From IMG/VR virus record IMGVR_UViG_3300020205_000341, positions 1 through 31,020 of that record: DNA of 31,020 nucleotides; one strand, written 5' to 3'. Positions 7,213-17,623 of this stretch are shown one piece after another. Both the position numbers and the translations under genes were made by a program. The stretch's first letter is position 1, and every line of letters begins with the position of its first letter. Below the pieces are notes generated by a model. It was not told the origin of the DNA. It saw only the letters and a program-made list of their open reading frames with translations, and did no database searches. Source of the stretch: a virus.

Positions 7213-7330
7213 ACTACAAAGGATGATCAAGTTCTGGAGAACGAAGTCATCGCACGAAACAATAAGAGGAAGTTTCAACGAGGAACTTTACAGAAGAATA
7301 TGTGAAATAAAATTTAATCAGACGTTATGA
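7202..7330 (+). CDS. Tiny basic early protein
   Basis: This 42-aa basic protein (MVFKLQRMIKFWRTKSSHET...) has no recognised domain. It overlaps the preceding gene by 11 bases and the following gene by ATGA, filling the gap exactly. The coupling is the main support. Confidence 0.5.
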   Translation: MVFKLQRMIKFWRTKSSHETIRGSFNEELYRRICEIKFNQTL

Positions 7331-7560
7331 AAAAACAAACGGCAGTAGAATGGTTAGTAGAGCAACTTGAAAACCATAACGGAGTTACAAGGGCAGGTTT
7401 TGAGAAATGTATTCAAGAAGCCAAAGAAATGGAAAAACAACAAATAATAGAAGCACACGGAGATAAGCAAAAAACGAAATCAAATCCTGATAGTTTAGTA
7501 ACTTACGGATATTGGTATTCGGGTAAAGATTATTATAACGACAAATACGAAAAACTATGA
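7327..7560 (+). CDS. TAVEWL-family small phage protein, copy 1
   Basis: This 77-aa protein has the conserved start KKQTAVEWLVEQLENHN and a second block EAKEMEKQQIIEAHGDKQ. The same blocks occur in the 96-aa protein at 14967, so the two are probable paralogues. Short proteins beginning with TAVEWL are common in Bacteroidetes phages and have no assigned function. The C-terminal part is Tyr-rich (TYGYWYSGKDYYNDKYEKL). ATGA overlaps link it to both neighbours. Confidence 0.72.
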   Translation: MKKQTAVEWLVEQLENHNGVTRAGFEKCIQEAKEMEKQQIIEAHGDKQKTKSNPDSLVTYGYWYSGKDYYNDKYEKL

Positions 7561-10444: not shown

Positions 10445-10698
10445 CTAAAAACCACAAACTAGTAACATTATCAGCAATACTTCCTGTATTAGCAGATTTT
10501 ATTGAGGATCTTAATGACCAGTACGTTTTTAAGCAGGATTTGAAACGTAAAGCAAACATCCTAGCAGATGAGATTCGGAAGGTAGACTACAAAGTTCTAC
10601 AGGTATACGGAGAAAAAAGAGAAGAAATATACTCGCAGCAGGTAGACTTACAATTGCTATTTAGACAATGGATTGAAAAAACTATAAAATTTGACTGA
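10441..10698 (+). CDS. Small helical protein in the replication operon
   Basis: This 85-aa protein is mostly helical: LSAILPVLADFIEDLNDQY, then KRKANILADEIRKVDYKVLQVY and a closing QLLFRQWIEKTIKF. No family is recognised. It is coupled to both neighbours by four-base (ATGA) and one-base (TGATG) overlaps. Its place between the helicase and the methyltransferase suggests an accessory role in replication. Confidence 0.65.
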   Translation: MTKNHKLVTLSAILPVLADFIEDLNDQYVFKQDLKRKANILADEIRKVDYKVLQVYGEKREEIYSQQVDLQLLFRQWIEKTIKFD

Positions 10699-11795
10699 TG
10701 AAAGTAGGAAGCGACTTTAGTGGAGTTGGTGCATTTGACCAAGCTCTGAAACGATTAGAAATAAATTATGAAACTGTTTTCGCCTGTGATATGGATAAGT
10801 ATGCAAGAGATACCTTCATTCACAACTATGGTGAACCAAAATACTATCCAAATAATGTTTACGATAGAGAGATTCCATCAGAGTCTTTAGATATCTATAT
10901 GACTTCTCCTCCTTGTCAAGCATTTTCACTAGCAGGAAAGCGACTAGGAAAAGACGATAAAAGAGGAGTTCTATTCTTTAACTCACACGAATTTATTCAA
11001 GTAAACAAACCGAGATTTTTTATATTTGAGAACGTCAAAGGATTGCTTTCAGATGATGGAGGGAAAACATTCCAAGAATGGATCAATATGTTAGGCGGTA
11101 AATCCGTAAATGGATTGCCAGTATTGTTCCCACACGATGATGCAGTTCCATATCATTTATATTGGAAAGTTCTAAACGCAAAGCATCACGGAGTGCCACA
11201 AAATCGTGAAAGAGTTTTCTTGATTGGAATTAGAGATGATAAAGACAATAGCTTTCAATATCCAAAGGAGGAACATTTGAGTAAAAGATTGAAGGATGTG
11301 TTGGAGGATAATGTGGATGATAAGTATTTTTTGAGTGAAAAGATGTTAAATGGATTTATAAATCACAATGAAAATCACAATGAAAAAGGAACTGGATTTG
11401 TATTTGAACCAAAAGACGAAACTCAAATTGCTAATTGTTTAAGAGCCAATGCAGCTTTATGCCCAACTGATAACACATTAAAAATAAAATCAGCCACATC
11501 TAAAGGATATGAAGAAGCAAGAGAAGGTGATTCAATCAATTTTAGTGTGCCATCTTCAGAAACACGAAGAGGAAGAGTAGGTAAAGGAGTAGCACAAACA
11601 TTGGACACTGGGTGTAATCAAGCAACAATAGATAGATTTAGGATCCGCAGATTAACTCCACGAGAATGCTTTCGACTAATGGACTTCCCCGATACATTCA
11701 CTTGGAAGGTATCTGATTCTCAAGCATACAAACAAGCTGGAAATTCAATCGTGGTGAATGTGCTTTACAAAATATTAAAACAACTACCATTATGA
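10698..11795 (+). CDS. DNA C5-cytosine methyltransferase
   Basis: This 365-aa enzyme would transfer a methyl group from S-adenosylmethionine to carbon 5 of cytosine in phage DNA. All key motifs are visible: motif I DFSGVGAFDQAL near residue 6, motif IV SPPCQAF with catalytic Cys73, motif VI ENV at 111-113, motif VIII QNRER at 168-172, and motif X QAGNSIVV near the C-terminus. The target recognition domain lies between about residues 190 and 320. It is complete for the family. No restriction partner with a recognisable family is adjacent, so it most likely shields phage DNA from host restriction, but see the nuclease-like protein at 12304. It overlaps both neighbours. Confidence 0.92.
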   Translation: MKVGSDFSGVGAFDQALKRLEINYETVFACDMDKYARDTFIHNYGEPKYYPNNVYDREIPSESLDIYMTSPPCQAFSLAGKRLGKDDKRGVLFFNSHEFIQVNKPRFFIFENVKGLLSDDGGKTFQEWINMLGGKSVNGLPVLFPHDDAVPYHLYWKVLNAKHHGVPQNRERVFLIGIRDDKDNSFQYPKEEHLSKRLKDVLEDNVDDKYFLSEKMLNGFINHNENHNEKGTGFVFEPKDETQIANCLRANAALCPTDNTLKIKSATSKGYEEAREGDSINFSVPSSETRRGRVGKGVAQTLDTGCNQATIDRFRIRRLTPRECFRLMDFPDTFTWKVSDSQAYKQAGNSIVVNVLYKILKQLPL

Positions 11796-12307
11796 GATGT
11801 AAAAACTGCAAAGAAAAGTTTGAACCTATAAGATTCAATCATAAATATTGTCTTGCTGATGATTGCATTAGGGCATTTGTAGCTGAGGTAAAAGAGAAGA
11901 GCTGGAAAGAAACCAAAACACGAATGAAGAACGACTTAAAAACTACACAAGATTGGTTAAAGGAAGCACAAACAATATTCAATCAATACATAAGACTACG
12001 AGATAACGGATTATGGTGCATATCGTGTGGATTACCTCCTAAGAAAAAGAACGCAGGACACTATTACTCACAGGGAGGACATTCAAACGTTCGATTTGAC
12101 GAGGACAATGTTCATTTACAATGCGAAGCCTGTAACACTTACTTATCAGGCAACTTACTAAACTATCAGATAGGTATAGAAAAACGAATAGGAGCAGAAA
12201 GATTAATTGAACTTCAAGGCAAAGCACACATAGAGAAAAAATGGAGCATAGATGAAATCAAAGAAATAATCAGAGTTTATAAAAATAAAGTAAGACAGTT
12301 GCAATGA
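11792..12307 (+). CDS. ninG: NinG/Rap-type recombination protein
   Basis: This 171-aa protein matches the lambda NinG family, which helps phage recombination by cutting branched DNA. The N-terminal zinc ribbon has Cys3, Cys6, Cys20 and Cys25. After a helix (residues 30-65) comes an HNH-like core with CISCG (Cys76, Cys79), AGHYYS (His90), RFDEDNVHLQ and CEACN (Cys111, Cys114), and LSGNLLNYQIG follows. The length and motif order agree with the family. It lies between the methyltransferase and a nuclease-like protein and is coupled to both by ATGA. Confidence 0.88.
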   Translation: MRCKNCKEKFEPIRFNHKYCLADDCIRAFVAEVKEKSWKETKTRMKNDLKTTQDWLKEAQTIFNQYIRLRDNGLWCISCGLPPKKKNAGHYYSQGGHSNVRFDEDNVHLQCEACNTYLSGNLLNYQIGIEKRIGAERLIELQGKAHIEKKWSIDEIKEIIRVYKNKVRQLQ

Positions 12308-12825: not shown

Positions 12826-12855
12826 TTTGTAATTGAAATATAATTTATATATTTG
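12826..12855 (+). promoter_or_regulatory. Promoter of the recombination operon
   Basis: TTTG at 12826-12829 and TATATTTG at 12848-12855 are 18 bp apart, fitting the Bacteroidetes consensus. TAATTGAAA at 12830-12838 lies exactly 18 nt before the minus-7 box, as in the early promoter. Transcription should begin near 12862, which excludes the upstream ATG at 12833 as a start. Confidence 0.78.
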
Positions 12856-12877
12856 TCTAAACAAAAACCAATTAATT

Positions 12878-13402
12878 ATGAAAAATCTATTAAAAATTCA
12901 GGCAGAATTAAAATGTCCAAAAGGTAGCTTTAACTCATTCGGTAAATACAAGTACCGAAGTGCAGAGCAGATTCTTGAATCACTTAAACCATTGCTACAA
13001 AAACACGAATCAACATTAGTTCTAACAGATGACATTGTTCAAGTAGGTGATAAGCTATTTTTAAAGGCTACTGCAACACTTTCTGATAGTGATAGTGTAA
13101 TTCATTCAAACGGATTTGCAGAGATGAGTGAACACAAAGGAATGTCATCTGAACAATGTACAGGTACTGCATCAAGTTATGCACGTAAGTACGCTTTAAA
13201 CGGACTATTCCTAATTGATGAAACAGAATCAGATCCCGATTCAAAAGACAACACGCCAGTGCAACCAAAGAAACAAACGTTAGACGCTAAAAGATTTCAA
13301 GATGCAGTCAAAGCAGTAACGGAAGGTAAGATAACAAGAGAATCTTTAGAAAGCAAGTTTAGTTTAACAGATGGTCAAATTGATATATTAAACGCACTAT
13401 GA
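12878..13402 (+). CDS. erf: ERF-family single-strand annealing protein
   Basis: This 174-aa recombinase would coat single-stranded DNA and anneal complementary strands. The N-terminal part has the family signature FNSFGKYKYRSAEQILESLKP (residues 18-38). The core then runs through strands to SSEQCTGTASSYARKYALNGLFLIDETESDPD, the conserved helix and acidic end of ERF proteins. The last 40 residues are a charged tail, probably for partner contact. I chose the ATG at 12878, because the earlier in-frame ATG at 12833 falls between the promoter boxes. The exonuclease gene follows with an ATGA overlap, giving the usual exonuclease/annealase pair. Confidence 0.88.
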   Translation: MKNLLKIQAELKCPKGSFNSFGKYKYRSAEQILESLKPLLQKHESTLVLTDDIVQVGDKLFLKATATLSDSDSVIHSNGFAEMSEHKGMSSEQCTGTASSYARKYALNGLFLIDETESDPDSKDNTPVQPKKQTLDAKRFQDAVKAVTEGKITRESLESKFSLTDGQIDILNAL

Positions 13403-14070
13403 AAGTTAGATGCTCTGCTATAGGAAAAATTATGTCAGCACCTCGCAACAAGAGTGAGGTGCTTTCACAGACTGCTAAGACTTATATTCACGAAATGGTT
13501 TTGCAGGATAAATACGGAATCAGAAAAGAGTTTAGCTCACGTTACACGGACAAAGGAAACGAAGTAGAAAACGAATCAATCAACTTAGTTAACGAAGTCT
13601 TAGACGTTGGATTTATCTACAAGAACGAGGAACACTACCAAAACGAATGGATAACAGGAACTCCCGATGTAAACACGGAGCAAGTATTGCTAGACGTTAA
13701 AAGCTCTTGGGATGGTTCTACGTTTCCATTCTTTGAAACAGAGATACCTACAAAGGATTACTACTACCAACTTCAAGGGTATATGTGGCTTACAGGTAAA
13801 CAACAATCAATGTTATGTTACTGCCTTGTTGATACACCTGTTGATATGGTTGCAAGTGAAGTTAAAAGAACTCATTATCTGTTAAATAAAATAGAGGAAG
13901 ATATTGAATTAACTAAAGAAATTGAATCAAAGCATATCTTTTCTCACATCCCAAAGAACCGCAGAGTTAAAGTATTTTATGTACAGAAAGACGAAGCAGT
14001 CATTGAAAGAATAAAAGAACAGGTAGAACTTTGCCGAGAGTATTACAACACCTTAATAAATTTCTTATGA
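13399..14070 (+). CDS. YqaJ/lambda-type DNA exonuclease
   Basis: This 223-aa PD-(D/E)XK nuclease would resect DNA ends and pass single strands to the ERF protein. Motifs: an N-terminal SAIGKIMSAPRN, GNEVE with an acidic residue near 55-57, GTPDV (Asp90), LLDVKSSW with Asp99-x-Lys101, and YYYQLQGYMWLTG with the conserved Gln124. Their order and spacing fit the YqaJ-like viral recombinase family. It is coupled by ATGA to the ERF gene upstream and to the small gene downstream. Confidence 0.87.
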   Translation: MKVRCSAIGKIMSAPRNKSEVLSQTAKTYIHEMVLQDKYGIRKEFSSRYTDKGNEVENESINLVNEVLDVGFIYKNEEHYQNEWITGTPDVNTEQVLLDVKSSWDGSTFPFFETEIPTKDYYYQLQGYMWLTGKQQSMLCYCLVDTPVDMVASEVKRTHYLLNKIEEDIELTKEIESKHIFSHIPKNRRVKVFYVQKDEAVIERIKEQVELCREYYNTLINFL

Positions 14071-14285
14071 ACCAACTAATAGAAGACCAAATAGTAATTC
14101 GTGTTTTAAGCCGATTTGCTGAACGTTCTCAAGTAGGAATAACCAAGTACAACACAACGCTTGAAAGAACTGATTTAAGCACGTTAGAATGGCTTACACA
14201 CGCACAGGAAGAAGCAATGGATTTCTGCCTATATTTGGAACGACTGAAAGACGAATTTAGTAACACAAAGCGAAATGTACCATAA
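14067..14285 (+). CDS. MazG-like / nucleotide-metabolism small protein
   Basis: This 72-aa helical protein has RSQVGITKYNTTLERTDLSTLEW then LTHAQEEAMDFCLYLERLKDE. The EExMDxxxYLxxL pattern resembles the metal-binding helix of all-alpha NTP pyrophosphatases (MazG and the dATP/dGTP diphosphohydrolase N-terminal family). It is too short for a complete enzyme, so it may act as an oligomer or be a relic. I chose the ATG at 14067 (ATGA overlap with the exonuclease stop) over a TTG at 14031. Confidence 0.55.
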   Translation: MNQLIEDQIVIRVLSRFAERSQVGITKYNTTLERTDLSTLEWLTHAQEEAMDFCLYLERLKDEFSNTKRNVP

Positions 14286-14303
14286 AGTGGTATAAAACGC
14301 TTT
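14267..14303 (+). other. RNA hairpin over the stop codon before the small-gene array
   Basis: AAAGCG (14267-14272) pairs with CGCTTT (14298-14303) as an outer stem. TGTACCA (14276-14282) pairs with TGGTATA (14288-14294, one G-U pair) as an inner stem, with a symmetric A-rich internal loop between them. It spans the stop codon at 14283. No T run follows. It could separate the recombination genes from the array by mRNA processing. The 98 bases from 14304 to the array start at 14402 contain nothing else I can support apart from the first array repeat. Confidence 0.4.
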
Positions 14304-14383
14304 ACAAAACTAAAAACAAAGAGGGGTAAAAGTTGCCACATAAACTAAATAGAAATGATACTAATTAAGTAAAAGACTTAAAA

Positions 14384-14404
14384 CCTTTAAATCAGAATAA
14401 GATG
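14384..14404 (+). repeat. Start-codon repeat, copy 1
   Basis: TTTAAATCAGAATAAGATG preceded by CC, ending in the ATG of the next gene. It is identical over 21 bases to copies 2, 5 and 8. Its TAA triplets fall in two different frames and the ATG in the third. Confidence 0.85.
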
Positions 14405-14527
14405 AAGCAATACAAAAAAAACTACGGAGGAGTAGAAGAAGATTATTCGGAAAGAGCACTATTCGTTTTTTTCTTGATTGGAATGGTTATCATTTCAACA
14501 ACAAGTTATTTATTATTTAACCTTTAA
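14402..14527 (+). CDS. Array gene 1: small membrane protein
   Basis: This 41-aa protein (MKQYKKNYGGVEEDYSERAL...) has a charged N-terminus and one membrane helix at about residues 19-40 (ALFVFFLIGMVIISTTSYLL). Its stop codon is the first TAA of the next repeat copy. No family is recognised. It is the first of nine genes introduced by the repeat. Confidence 0.62.
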   Translation: MKQYKKNYGGVEEDYSERALFVFFLIGMVIISTTSYLLFNL

Positions 14528-14541
14528 ATCAGAATAAGATG
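14521..14541 (+). repeat. Start-codon repeat, copy 2
   Basis: Identical to copy 1 over 21 bases. Its TAA at 14525-14527 ends array gene 1 and its ATG at 14539 starts array gene 2. Confidence 0.85.
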
Positions 14542-14712
14542 AGAAAATTTTATGTAATTAAAAATGTCATATCCAAAAAGTATTTATCCTATGATGGTGA
14601 ATGGGATGAGTGGAATATGTGTAGAGAATTTGAAACAAAGCAAGATGCAGAAGATTATGGTTTTGAAAATAGTCTTGGCTTGTGTGTTATTGAGGAAGTA
14701 ATTGCCTTTTAA
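14539..14712 (+). CDS. Array gene 2: small acidic protein
   Basis: This 57-aa protein begins with a strand (MRKFYVIKNVISKKYLSYD), then EWDEWNMCREFETKQDAEDYGF and a closing strand LGLCVIEEVIAF. The pattern of a short beta unit with an ETKQDAEDY helix is seen in many small phage proteins of unknown role. It ends on the first TAA of repeat copy 3. Confidence 0.62.
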   Translation: MRKFYVIKNVISKKYLSYDGEWDEWNMCREFETKQDAEDYGFENSLGLCVIEEVIAF

Positions 14713-14726
14713 TTTAGAATAAGATG
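14707..14726 (+). repeat. Start-codon repeat, copy 3 (variant)
   Basis: TTTTAATTTAGAATAAGATG differs from the common form in the first half; the AGAATAAGATG half is intact. Its TAA at 14710 ends array gene 2. Confidence 0.75.
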
Positions 14727-14813
14727 GAAAGAAACTATATTATCCAAGTTAATGGTCAATATGTTGTTTTAACAGAAGGTCAGTATGAACAGTATTTAAT
14801 TTATGGTATTTAA
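14724..14813 (+). CDS. Array gene 3: 29-aa peptide
   Basis: MERNYIIQVNGQYVVLTEGQ followed by YEQYLIYGI: 29 residues, mainly strand-forming and aromatic. It is too short for domain recognition. The repeat at each end, supplying start and stop, is the reason to call it a gene. Confidence 0.5.
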   Translation: MERNYIIQVNGQYVVLTEGQYEQYLIYGI

Positions 14814-14827
14814 ATCAGAATAAGATG
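14809..14827 (+). repeat. Start-codon repeat, copy 4
   Basis: TTTAAATCAGAATAAGATG, the 19-base core. The first TAA (14811-14813) ends array gene 3; the ATG at 14825 starts array gene 4. Confidence 0.85.
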
Positions 14828-14965
14828 GAAAAAGAAATGTTAAAAGAATTTGTTGAGTGGGTAAGAAATTGTGGAGAAGATGAATCTTACATATTTGAAG
14901 AGACACAAGAAGCAATTGAAAGATTTTTGTTTGAAAAAGACTTGAAATCCTTTAAATCAGAATAA
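14825..14965 (+). CDS. Array gene 4: small acidic helical protein
   Basis: This 46-aa protein, MEKEMLKEFVEWVRNCGEDE then SYIFEETQEAIERFLFEKDL, is two helices separated by a short polar turn. Its last four residues, FKSE, are encoded by the repeat itself, and the second TAA of the repeat is the stop. No family is recognised. Confidence 0.58.
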   Translation: MEKEMLKEFVEWVRNCGEDESYIFEETQEAIERFLFEKDLKSFKSE

Positions 14966-14969
14966 GATG
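14949..14969 (+). repeat. Start-codon repeat, copy 5
   Basis: Identical to copies 1, 2 and 8 over 21 bases. It is translated as FKSE then stop at the end of array gene 4; its ATG starts array gene 5. Confidence 0.85.
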
Positions 14970-15257
14970 ACAGCAGTAGAATGGTTAGCAGATGAGATTA
15001 TTATGCTTGAAGAAAAGTTAAGGCTTGAAGAAATCAACATTAATGATTTTATGGATGCTAAAGATGAATTAGTTAGCAAGGCTTTAGAAATGGAGAAACA
15101 AAACTTATTAGATATGTCTGTTAAGTCTGCTCTATATGAAAGAAAATGGGTTTATGAGGAAATGTCAGATAAGAAATACAAACCTACAAAAGTTGAAATC
15201 CGTGACTTAAAAATAACCGCATTAGAACATTACAACATAACTTTTAAATCAGAATAA
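14967..15257 (+). CDS. Array gene 5: TAVEWL-family protein, copy 2
   Basis: This 96-aa helical protein has MTAVEWLADEIIMLEEKLRL at the start and a KALEMEKQNLLDMSVKSA block. It shares both with the early gene at 7327, although this copy is longer by an internal acidic helix. The end reads TFKSE, encoded by repeat copy 6. It is one of the longer members of the array and belongs to a phage family with no known function. Confidence 0.72.
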   Translation: MTAVEWLADEIIMLEEKLRLEEININDFMDAKDELVSKALEMEKQNLLDMSVKSALYERKWVYEEMSDKKYKPTKVEIRDLKITALEHYNITFKSE

Positions 15258-15264
15258 AATTATG
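15243..15264 (+). repeat. Start-codon repeat, copy 6 (variant)
   Basis: TTTAAATCAGAATAA is intact, but AGATG is replaced by AATTATG, moving the start codon three bases. It encodes FKSE and the stop of array gene 5. Confidence 0.78.
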
Positions 15265-15465
15265 AGTTGGATAGAAGATAATTTAGATTGGGAAATTTTA
15301 GAAAATTATATGAACCCAAAAGAAGAAATTATAGAAGATGTTACAAAAAAAGAAATATTAGATGTTTTATATGAAATAAGCACATTAGTTTCAGATGACA
15401 TAGAATTTTCTAAAGAACTTAATGAAAAGTTTAAAAGAGTTGAAAAATATTTAGAATCAGAATAA
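15262..15465 (+). CDS. Array gene 6: small acidic helical protein
   Basis: This 67-aa, very acidic protein (MSWIEDNLDWEILENYMNPK... EEIIEDVTKKEILDVLYEIS) is predicted as two helices. It ends in LESE, where the last codons and stop are given by repeat copy 7. No known family; the acidity is a feature shared with several early genes. Confidence 0.62.
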   Translation: MSWIEDNLDWEILENYMNPKEEIIEDVTKKEILDVLYEISTLVSDDIEFSKELNEKFKRVEKYLESE

Positions 15466-15469
15466 GATG
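15450..15469 (+). repeat. Start-codon repeat, copy 7 (one base changed)
   Basis: TTTAGAATCAGAATAAGATG: the first TAA is lost by a change to TAGAA, so only the second TAA stops the upstream gene. The ATG at 15467 starts array gene 7. Confidence 0.8.
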
Positions 15470-15586
15470 GGAATCATCAAAGACAAAGCCAATCAATTAA
15501 AAAATGACCACTGGTATAAGAGGTTAAGAAGGTGGCTAAAGTTTAAACTATGGGTATGGAAACACGTAACCTTTAAATCAGAATAA
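15467..15586 (+). CDS. Array gene 7: basic Trp-rich peptide
   Basis: This 39-aa protein is strongly basic and Trp-rich: MGIIKDKANQLKNDHWYKRL then RRWLKFKLWVWKHVTFKSE. The helix at residues 14-33 would be amphipathic and could associate with membranes or nucleic acid. The tail TFKSE is encoded by the next repeat. Confidence 0.52.
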   Translation: MGIIKDKANQLKNDHWYKRLRRWLKFKLWVWKHVTFKSE

Positions 15587-15590
15587 GATG
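15570..15590 (+). repeat. Start-codon repeat, copy 8
   Basis: Identical to copies 1, 2 and 5 over 21 bases. It encodes the FKSE tail and stop of array gene 7; its ATG starts array gene 8. Confidence 0.85.
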
Positions 15591-15761
15591 GAAAAAGAGA
15601 TCAGAAAACAAATAGACTTGTTAGAAGAAGAACAAAGAAGAGTAAAGCAGTTCTTAAATGAAAATAACTTTAATTGTACTACAGCACCATATGTAATTGC
15701 TAAGGAATACAGAGATGCTATCAAAAAACATATTGAAGTTTTAAGAATGAACCTAGACTAA
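15588..15761 (+). CDS. Array gene 8: small coiled-coil-like protein
   Basis: This 57-aa protein, MEKEIRKQIDLLEEEQRRVK then QFLNENNFNCTTAPYVIAKE and a final helix YRDAIKKHIEVLRMNL, is likely a helical hairpin. It ends two bases before repeat copy 9 (the stop TAA overlaps the edge). No family is recognised. Confidence 0.6.
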   Translation: MEKEIRKQIDLLEEEQRRVKQFLNENNFNCTTAPYVIAKEYRDAIKKHIEVLRMNLD

Positions 15762-15779
15762 TTAAATCAGAATAAGATG
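15762..15779 (+). repeat. Start-codon repeat, copy 9
   Basis: TTAAATCAGAATAAGATG. The common core is intact from TTAAATC onward. Its ATG at 15777 starts array gene 9, the last one with this repeat. Confidence 0.82.
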
Positions 15780-15971
15780 AGAATAACAATAGAACAATAC
15801 GAACACAAGATTATCCACGAAGTACCACACAACGATGTAACACTCGAGGAAGCACTGGAGATGATTGAAGGACTGCTCAAAGCAACGGGTTATTCCTTCA
15901 GTGGAAACCTTGAGATTGTAGATGAATGGCACGAGAATGATGAAAACCAAACCAATAATGAAGCAAATTAA
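15777..15971 (+). CDS. Array gene 9: small acidic protein
   Basis: This 64-aa protein, MRITIEQYEHKIIHEVPHND then VTLEEALEMIEGLLKATGYS, is a short strand plus helix, ending in an acidic tail (DEWHENDENQTNNEAN). No family is recognised. It overlaps the next gene by 14 bases, so the repeat pattern ends here and coupling by overlap resumes. Confidence 0.65.
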   Translation: MRITIEQYEHKIIHEVPHNDVTLEEALEMIEGLLKATGYSFSGNLEIVDEWHENDENQTNNEAN

Positions 15972-16062
15972 AGAAAAAACCAAAGCAATCATCGGATTCT
16001 TATCTGCCATTGCATTAATCATTACACTGGTAACGTTAGTTTGTTCTTGGATATTTAAGTAA
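15958..16062 (+). CDS. Tiny single-pass membrane protein
   Basis: This 34-aa protein has a basic start MKQIKEKTKA and one membrane helix at about residues 11-32 (IIGFLSAIALIITLVTLVCS). It overlaps the previous gene by 14 bases and is followed after seven bases by the SSB-like gene. Confidence 0.52.
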   Translation: MKQIKEKTKAIIGFLSAIALIITLVTLVCSWIFK

Positions 16063-16069
16063 GTTGACA

Positions 16070-16420
16070 ATGAAAATAGATATAGAAGATTTTAACCGAA
16101 AGGCAGAATACATAATTGAAACCGTTGTCAAACCACAAGTAGCAAAATACGAATTAAGTAAACAATTAAATAAACATAAAATGGAAAACAAAGTAAACAC
16201 GGGAGCAATCTTTAAAAACACGAACAAGAAAGCAGAGAACCATCCAGACTACAAAGGAAAGGTAAACGTAAATGGTAAAGAAATGGAAGTTGCGTTATGG
16301 GTTAAGCAAGGTAAAGCAGGATCATTCTTTTCTGCAGCATTCAGTGAGCCTTACGTTGCACCAGAAACAATGGAACGCAGACCTATTAGTGATGCAATGG
16401 ACGATGATTTGCCTTTCTAA
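16070..16420 (+). CDS. SSB-like protein with DDDLPF C-terminus
   Basis: From the ATG at 16070 the protein is 116 aa. Its last residues, MDDDLPF, are the acidic-aromatic tip typical of single-stranded DNA-binding proteins, used to recruit partners. From 16181 it reads MENKVNTGAIFKNTNKKAEN then PDYKGKVNVNGKEMEVALWV, a compact strand-rich fold seen in phage proteins of this kind. The 37 residues ahead of that Met form a charged helix and may be an extra domain, or translation may begin at 16181 (79 aa). It would serve replication and the ERF system. The stop overlaps the next ATG by one base. Confidence 0.68.
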   Translation: MKIDIEDFNRKAEYIIETVVKPQVAKYELSKQLNKHKMENKVNTGAIFKNTNKKAENHPDYKGKVNVNGKEMEVALWVKQGKAGSFFSAAFSEPYVAPETMERRPISDAMDDDLPF

Positions 16421-16641
16421 TGTATATTGATGAGGGAGGATTGCGAAAGCAATTAGAGATGTTGCTTCGTACCAAAACACGAAACCAAATTGTGCAAGAG
16501 ATAAAGTCAAACACAGGAAGATTCCATCAGTACCAAATAGACAAGTTTCTACAAGGAAAAGATGTAACACTTTGCACGGTAATAAAGTTAGACAACTACG
16601 TTAGCCGAGAGATTTACTTAAACGATTTAGAGCCACTTTAA
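16420..16641 (+). CDS. Cro/XRE-like small DNA-binding protein
   Basis: This 73-aa protein has a helix-turn-helix layout: LRKQLEMLLRTKTRNQIVQE, then SNTGRFHQYQIDKFLQGKDV and TLCTVIKLDNYVS. The segment from QYQIDKFLQGKDVTL onward matches the recognition helix and following loop of XRE-type regulators. Its stop codon lies in the loop of the following terminator. It is the only clear candidate protein for the palindromes in 6108-6504. That link is inference. Confidence 0.62.
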   Translation: MYIDEGGLRKQLEMLLRTKTRNQIVQEIKSNTGRFHQYQIDKFLQGKDVTLCTVIKLDNYVSREIYLNDLEPL

Positions 16642-16655
16642 TTAGTGGCTTTTTT
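16631..16655 (+). terminator. Terminator overlapping the stop of the Cro-like gene
   Basis: AGCCACT (16631-16637) pairs perfectly with AGTGGCT (16644-16650) around a TTAATT loop, followed by T (16650-16655). The stop codon TAA (16639-16641) lies in the loop, so translating ribosomes would interfere with the hairpin. Confidence 0.82.
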
Positions 16656-16696
16656 ATTGTTGAAAACTTTTTAGCAACGTGATTAGATTTTCATCG

Positions 16697-16704
16697 TAAG
16701 TTTG
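16697..16704 (+). promoter_or_regulatory. Minus-7 box ahead of the sigma-like gene
   Basis: TAAGTTTG fits TAnnTTTG and lies 17 nt before the TTG start. No clear TTG/TTTG is at the minus-33 distance, so the promoter is only partly supported. A new promoter is expected here because a terminator precedes it. Confidence 0.45.
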
Positions 16705-16720
16705 ATTAGAAATTAATCAA

Positions 16721-17248
16721 TTGGATAAGTTACAAACTCTTGCAAAGCATCATAAGGATTGGGTAAGGATTGTCAATAGCTTTGGCGAATACTTCCTTGC
16801 AGATGACATCGTCCAAGAAACATATATCAAAATAATACGTTTAAATCATATAGATAAGATTGTTACTGAATCGGTAAACAAGAACATTATGTGGTTAATC
16901 CTACGAAGTGTTTACGTTGATCATTTAAGAGCAAGAAAGATTGAAAGCGTATCAATTGAAGATTGCACCAAGCTAAGTTATAATGATTGCAACCTAGAAA
17001 AACACGAAGCATTTAACTTAATTGAACAAAAGATACAAGAAGAAATAGACAAGTGGCACTGGTACGACATTAAATTGTTTAACCTGTATCGTGAATCAAA
17101 CTTATCAATGCGTGAGATAGCAGAAGAAACAGACATCAGTTTAACTTCTATATTCAACACATTAAAGAACTGCAAGGAAAGACTTCTAGAATCAATTGGA
17201 GAGGACTTTCAAGATTATTTAAACGAAGATTTTGAATTAATAAAATAA
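16721..17248 (+). CDS. Sigma-70-like RNA polymerase sigma factor
   Basis: This 175-aa protein has the two-domain layout of short sigma factors. Residues 20-60 resemble region 2 (FGEYFLADDIVQETYIKIIR, with the LADDIVQETY block and following basic residues). Residues 113-155 resemble region 4 (DIKLFNLYRESNLSMREIAE then ETDISLTSIFNTLKNCKERL, a helix-turn-helix). It starts with TTG at 16721: the frame is closed by TGA at 16703 and no ATG occurs until after region 2. It sits between a terminator and the terminase genes, so it may direct late transcription. A terminase-associated DNA-binding role is the alternative. Confidence 0.72.
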   Translation: MDKLQTLAKHHKDWVRIVNSFGEYFLADDIVQETYIKIIRLNHIDKIVTESVNKNIMWLILRSVYVDHLRARKIESVSIEDCTKLSYNDCNLEKHEAFNLIEQKIQEEIDKWHWYDIKLFNLYRESNLSMREIAEETDISLTSIFNTLKNCKERLLESIGEDFQDYLNEDFELIK

Positions 17249-17251
17249 ATT

Positions 17252-17623
17252 ATGGCAAAACAAACAACAAAAAAAGCACAGGGATTAGGAGATACAATCG
17301 AACAAATCACGGAAGCAACAGGAATTAAAAAATTAGTTAAGTTCATTGCTGGAGATGACTGCGGATGTAAAGAACGTAAAGAGAAGCTCAACGCATTGTT
17401 TCCTTATCACAAACCTGAATGTCTAACAGAGGATGAGTACAACTATCTAGACGAAACAAAGGTACTAGAGAAAAACACGATCAAACCAAGTGAACAAGAC
17501 GCAATCTTAAAAATTTACAATAGAGTATTTCACGTAAGTAGAGAACCAACATCGTGTGCAAGTTGTTTAAGAGATATCGTTATTAAGATGCAAAAAGTGT
17601 TCGCTGAATATCAAACTGCATAA
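17252..17623 (+). CDS. Conserved Cys-rich phage protein ahead of terminase
   Basis: This 123-aa protein begins with a basic stretch MAKQTTKKAQGLGDTIEQIT. A cluster GDDCGCKERKEKLNALFPY comes next, then CLTEDEYNYLDE in the middle, and CASCLRDIVIKMQ near the end. The CxC and CxxC pairs suggest zinc binding. Proteins with this DCGCKERKEKLN motif are common in flavobacterial phages close to the terminase genes, but I know no function. It lies four bases after the sigma-like gene and seven bases before the next. Confidence 0.72.
   Translation: MAKQTTKKAQGLGDTIEQITEATGIKKLVKFIAGDDCGCKERKEKLNALFPYHKPECLTEDEYNYLDETKVLEKNTIKPSEQDAILKIYNRVFHVSREPTSCASCLRDIVIKMQKVFAEYQTA

Follow-up and report, generated by a model that had tools for sequence, protein, structure and literature searches.

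A putative stop-start linker between small gene cassettes of probable Flavobacterium phages

The viral DNA record IMGVR_UViG_3300020205_000341 (IMG/VR; 31,020 nucleotides (nt), taken at full length and hereafter called the window) carries a run of small genes introduced by the same short sequence, which raises the question of what a repeat placed at the starts of so many genes does for the phage. Judged from sequence comparison, the repeat is quite likely a stop-start linker, which would serve translation initiation of the next gene and, at the same time, provide the homology for exchange of gene cassettes.

The array and its repeat

Nine copies of the repeat (at most two mismatches, all on the + strand) are present in the window and confined to 14.4-15.8 kb, with a chance expectation of 0.08; no shuffled sequence gave nine. 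An earlier note on this DNA had reported nine copies, four identical with a leading CC and three variant. The nine stand where it placed them and four do have the CC, but five are exact over 19 bases and the variants number four (14708, 15243, 15451 and 15761). Eight of the nine end in the ATG of a gene, as had been proposed for all, but the copy at 15243 ends in ...AAAATT and its gene starts later, at 15262. The range assigned to the array is 14384-15779, but the ninth gene extends past it to 15971. The proposed reading of the repeat itself, with TAA in two frames and ATG in the third, was borne out by the sequence, as was its action on upstream genes: the first TAA closes genes 1-3 and the second closes genes 4-7, while gene 8 stops at the edge of the linker. 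Translation of the repeat as a tail, noted earlier for at least four genes, occurs in genes 4-7 (FKSE in three, LESE in one). Eight small genes make up the array, bordered by two conserved genes (14067-14285 and 15777-15971), the left one downstream of an ERF gene and its neighbour. Pfam and PHROG searches with the array genes gave no noteworthy match. The features are as follows.

14384..14404, +: linker 1, exact, CCTTTAAATCAGAATAAG-ATG
14402..14527, +: cassette gene 1, 41 amino acids (aa), hydrophobic segment, stop is the first TAA of linker 2
14521..14541, +: linker 2, exact
14539..14712, +: cassette gene 2, 57 aa
14706..14726, +: linker 3, variant TTTAATTTAGAATAAG-ATG
14724..14813, +: cassette gene 3, 29 aa
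14807..14827, +: linker 4, exact over 19 bases
14825..14965, +: cassette gene 4, 46 aa, tail SFKSE
14949..14969, +: linker 5, exact
14967..15257, +: cassette gene 5, 96 aa, MTAVEWL...YYNETFKSE family (the commonest cassette), tail HYNITFKSE
15241..15264, +: linker 6, variant, ATG shifted downstream to 15262
15262..15465, +: cassette gene 6, 67 aa, tail LESE
15449..15469, +: linker 7, variant TTAGAATCAGAATAAG-ATG
15467..15586, +: cassette gene 7, 39 aa, basic, tail TFKSE
15570..15590, +: linker 8, exact
15588..15761, +: cassette gene 8, 57 aa
15759..15779, +: linker 9, variant ATTAAATCAGAATAAG-ATG, right array border
15777..15971, +: conserved gene 9, 64 aa, introduced by linker 9
14067..14285, +: conserved left-flank gene, PHROG 17558 (no function assigned there), left array border; from family match and relatives
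12833..13402, +: ERF-superfamily single-strand annealing protein, candidate recombinase (PF04404, E 1.3e-32)

A conserved DNA element at start codons

The repeat keeps its place before start codons in relatives of the window. In an unseeded set of 158 loci (1.27 Mb), fetched by similarity to the ERF protein and terminase of the window regardless of the repeat, the core AAATCAGAATAA occurs at 39 distinct places, exactly one base before an ATG in 37 of them and never in antisense; a reversed-sequence control also gave none. A blind count of 11-mers at a fixed distance upstream of starts in these relatives returned two leading families, namely the linker of the window (type A, TTTAAATCAGAATAAG) and a second one (type B, TTTAAACAACAAGAACA-ATG). 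The B core stands directly before the ATG at 74 of 79 places in the set, with no antisense copy and none or one in reversed controls. Unrelated gene families behind linkers at the fixed offset number 24 for A and 34 for B, while shuffled controls reach 4. Type B, found in at least 120 viral stretches, makes the upstream protein end in FKQQEQ and joins the two genes by an ATGA overlap; instances are seen at L315:4409-4431 and in L331 and L287 (loci L286-L443 and L444-L538). Shuffles, reversed controls and the fixed start offset rule out chance or a plain A-rich context. Gene duplication is likewise ruled out, the 439 proteins behind linkers forming 196 blast components, and a promoter of the TAHHTTTG type was rejected, as its sole + strand match in 13000-17500 falls at 14230, within a gene. 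A third linker type may exist: AAAACGTAGAACT, at -13, gives a weaker signal with 7 families in 17 contigs (L286-L443). Another candidate, CCTAAATAAACACGG, stands directly before gene 9 orthologues in several contigs.

A wider collection of 587 copies (at most 4 mismatches over 17 positions; about 6 expected by chance) reduces to 490 distinct ones, 302 of which encode the C-terminus of the upstream protein, as against 188 that do not; the base profile is identical between the two groups. When YYNETFKSE was scanned with synonymous codons allowed, phenylalanine was TTT in 119/119 cases, lysine AAA in 119/119 and serine TCA in 117/119, and behind TTAACCTTTAAATCAGAATAAG, the form in which the upstream gene has already been stopped, the ATG comes next in 81 of 84 copies. 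Therefore, it is the DNA and not the peptide that is conserved, and it is linked to the start. The tail is present on many upstream genes, as would be expected if the C-terminal peptide FKSE or QQEQ were itself selected, for example as a tag or degron; nevertheless, such selection is very improbable and largely refuted by the 188 untranslated copies, the fixed TCA and the behaviour of gene 3. This gene is tailless in A contexts, whereas in L315 it lies between two B linkers (87% identity over 14724-14814) and acquires the end VKLKQQEQ. Since the linker stops only two frames, a fused open reading frame is expected wherever a copy falls in the third, and at L414:2726-2962 two cassettes are read as one (MNKWDK... 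running into MGLIKDK...).

One family, with the start K(Q)TAVEWL and the end EQYYNETF-KSE or -KQQEQ, supplies the commonest gene on either side of a linker; for type A and type B alike, the linker is the 3' coding end of this family. Its predicted structure is small and mostly helical (predicted local distance difference test score, pLDDT, 77), and the model has no significant match in the PDB; a second member in the window (7327-7560, 77 aa) is without linker A. It may be asked whether linkers are simply functionless scars, that is, the 3' end of this family acting as a selfish element and remaining after insertions and deletions. Of the 302 tail-coding copies, 233 follow proteins from the family's blast component, the family tails (FKSE 134, QQEQ 29) mirror the two linker types, and copies with a stop in front retain the AACC of the NET-codon end. 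Scars would be expected to decay, yet the non-coding copies are equally conserved and keep the ATG at the frequency given above, which makes this explanation rather unlikely. The family may well be the origin of the linker all the same, which probably arose as the 3' end of such a gene fused to the next start.

Cassette exchange and translation initiation at the linkers

Gain and loss are seen in four close relatives (L286, L288, L289 and L385), which lack the whole array while their left flank is 85-89% identical to the window. Homology breaks off where the left gene ends and is taken up again at 15776-15777, at the start codon of gene 9; orthologues of gene 9 match from the ATG on and are preceded by linker A, linker B or some other leader. 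Reordering is seen in L414, a phage with just 69-73% backbone identity to the window. It contains gene 6 at 96% identity (15225-15469), gene 3 at 94% over precisely the linker-to-linker stretch (14708-14827) and gene 7 at 85%, with gene 3 after genes 6 and 7 and not before them as in the window. One more cassette has been inserted precisely at linker 7, and beyond gene 7 the linker leads into a different gene. A copy of gene 3 with another neighbour behind it is found in L266, and the region of gene 2 (14518-14726) is found from linker to linker in L093 at 79.5% identity. For gene 8, an 82% identical gene is present in L177, where the upstream sequence is neither an A nor a B linker. In the relatives compared, mosaic junctions coincide with linkers.

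Gene pairs at least 85% identical with different neighbours on both sides number 63 between A contexts, 92 between B contexts and 16 across the types. Edge and partner-switching counts are also available, but they derive from contigs chosen for the repeat and the unseeded counts are therefore preferred. In the unseeded set, 79% of relatives of A genes and 53% of those of B genes stand in contexts differing on both sides, as against 23% for other small genes. Counted by gene, at least one such relative is found for 35 of 51 linker genes, as against 117 of 234 small genes within 1.5 kb of a linker (p = 0.02). The earlier proposal of gain, loss and shuffling of small genes by recombination is supported by the array-free relatives, the order in L414 and this excess of context change. 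The pattern named as its refutation, the same genes in the same order with a repeat no more conserved than they are, was sought among relatives, which show the reverse.

Contigs carrying at least two linkers are mostly of one type, mixed A and B being present in 30 of 196 where random dealing predicts 136. Both types should serve translation equally, and homology-directed exchange at the linkers would explain this homogeneity; alternatively, one-type arrays may reflect host-specific dialects instead of recruitment by homology. In a phylogeny of ERF proteins, 25 changes of linker type are counted as against 29 for shuffled labels, so that the type hardly follows descent, and the window (A) is nearest to L287 (B), with ERF 98% identical; these labels are somewhat noisy, as a simple gene caller overlooked A linkers in L299.

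Shine-Dalgarno sequences are not used in Bacteroidota, and the linker TTTAAATCAGAATAAG contains no AGGAG core. In Flavobacterium johnsoniae, ribosome profiling has identified adenines at -3, -6, -12 and -13 as promoting initiation (PMC6847099). At these positions, 96-100% of the unseeded A and B copies have A, as against 43-64% at other starts of the same contigs, and the local RNA is weakly structured (mean minimum free energy -2.4 for A, -1.2 for B and -3.7 for other starts). The linkers thereby resemble the Kozak-like context of Bacteroidota but differ from it in being a fixed 16-base sequence, while that context is a statistical preference (PMC6847099). Each linker thus probably gives the next gene a strong start. 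In a rival reading, the linker is a translation-initiation or regulatory element only, recognised by the ribosome or by some factor of phage or host, which travels along with accessory genes that are mobile for other reasons. The fixed place before the ATG, the four adenines and the weak structure fit such a role. Nevertheless, it predicts neither the near-single linker type per contig, nor the same gene with different linkers on both sides, nor a conserved gene gaining or losing its linker along with the array, and the linker is nearly absent from host genomes; the reading is accordingly an unlikely one.

A stop-start linker engaged in both initiation and exchange would work as follows. The linker (16 bases, often with more in front) carries stops for the upstream gene in two of the three frames and gives the following ATG a near-ideal initiation context for Bacteroidota, so that terminating ribosomes could restart 1 nt on, or at the ATGA overlap in type B. 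The same bases would provide an annealing recombinase (ERF or similar) with a short identical stretch for swapping cassettes and joining unlike genes, and the device would operate whatever genes flank it on either side. Rad52-like phage recombinases, one Erf included, do recombine short and diverged homologies (PMC3945230). Several observations weigh against this proposal. De Paepe et al. took 30 bp as the minimum for Red-beta (PMC3945230) and the bare linker has 16-21 nt, although tail-coding copies share about 40 nt. The 16 pairs across types need breakpoints at the ATG and at the stop without linker identity, and relatives without the array carry ERF too. A contribution of the ERF/exonuclease pair, and early expression or an anti-defence role of the cassettes, are suggestions of the earlier note. 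The excess of context change over small genes of the same neighbourhood is modest, and counts are not fully independent, because mosaic similarity links 341 of the 365 linker contigs into a single group when the threshold is loosest, while 40% coverage leaves 91 groups.

Distribution, precedents and significance

Viral contigs contain the exact 19-mer of linker A in at least 120 stretches. Contigs of bacterial and archaeal genomes (257 Gb, a collection of 84,980 genomes) yield no more than six stretches, at most one of which resembles this system; a host element is thereby ruled out. The one candidate, L205 (Flavobacteriales metagenome-assembled genome CANLIL010000001.1), has the linker after an SFKSE tail and before an SVEFF... 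gene, and is probably a phage contig binned together with its host. Among 50,697 records of isolated phages, short-query blastn found no full linker A or B, a search near the sensitivity limit of the method, and tblastn with gene 5 gave no match. Linker-bearing contigs range from under 5 kb to 223 kb. In all, the linker is borne by hundreds of environmental viral contigs, probably of Flavobacterium-type phages. For the window itself the host is probably a flavobacterium, as the best cultured relatives of its terminase are phages of Flavobacterium psychrophilum (54% identity). Just upstream of ERF, the window also encodes a C-5 cytosine DNA methylase followed by a NinG-like gene (10698-12307).

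The earlier note knew of no description of this arrangement. Neither the linker letters nor the peptide YYNETF was mentioned in the literature searched. The arrangement is less isolated than the note supposed, being common to hundreds of contigs, with two linker types or more, and having partial precedents in print. The nearest known systems are the start-associated sequences (SAS) of cluster K mycobacteriophages and the boundary sequences of phage mosaicism. The SAS, GGGATAGGAGCCC, contains a Shine-Dalgarno core (Pope et al., 2011, PMC3203893), and 17-bp inverted repeats, the extended SAS (ESAS), lie upstream of about half of the copies (PMC3203893). A role in initiation has been proposed, with function unproven, and SAS are confined to non-structural genes (PMC3203893; also PMC12699233). 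Linkers share with SAS the short conserved sequence just before the ATG, the single orientation, the varied non-structural gene families and, at times, an upstream stop within the element (PMC3203893). They differ in having an A-rich Bacteroidota context without Shine-Dalgarno sequence, built-in stops and at least two seldom-mixed types, and no ESAS-like inverted repeats were reported at the linkers of the window. Furthermore, there is direct sequence evidence of cassette exchange at linkers, while the portions available of PMC3203893 and PMC12699233 hold no account of shuffling at SAS.

To account for phage mosaicism, short conserved boundary sequences were proposed long ago, yet at most junctions none could be identified (PMC3029335). 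The likeness lies in an identical short sequence at module borders, which would let homologous recombination join unlike modules (PMC3029335). Linkers differ in standing at the borders of single genes, in arrays of up to ten, with an expression signal built in; they combine features of SAS and boundary sequences, and add stops and dialects. In integrons, too, small unrelated genes are arrayed between short repeats. The linker array shares this layout, but the linker has no inverted repeat and sits at the start codon; the inverted-repeat arms reported in the window do not coincide with linkers, as attC-like repeats would. A dedicated integrase was not identified, although no search was aimed at one.

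A broader proposal, which could equally well hold or fail, is that linkers form a common standard by which phages of Flavobacterium-like hosts exchange genes, in which at least two seldom-mixed dialects of stop, start and recombination allow arrays to be rebuilt gene by gene through general phage recombinases, without an integrase. Because linkers are plain, common, carry an expression signal and come in dialects, they make the boundary-sequence idea directly testable. They also offer a way of searching for many small phage genes that lack annotation, a number of which may act on their hosts, and the linker is a candidate portable translation start for Bacteroidota.
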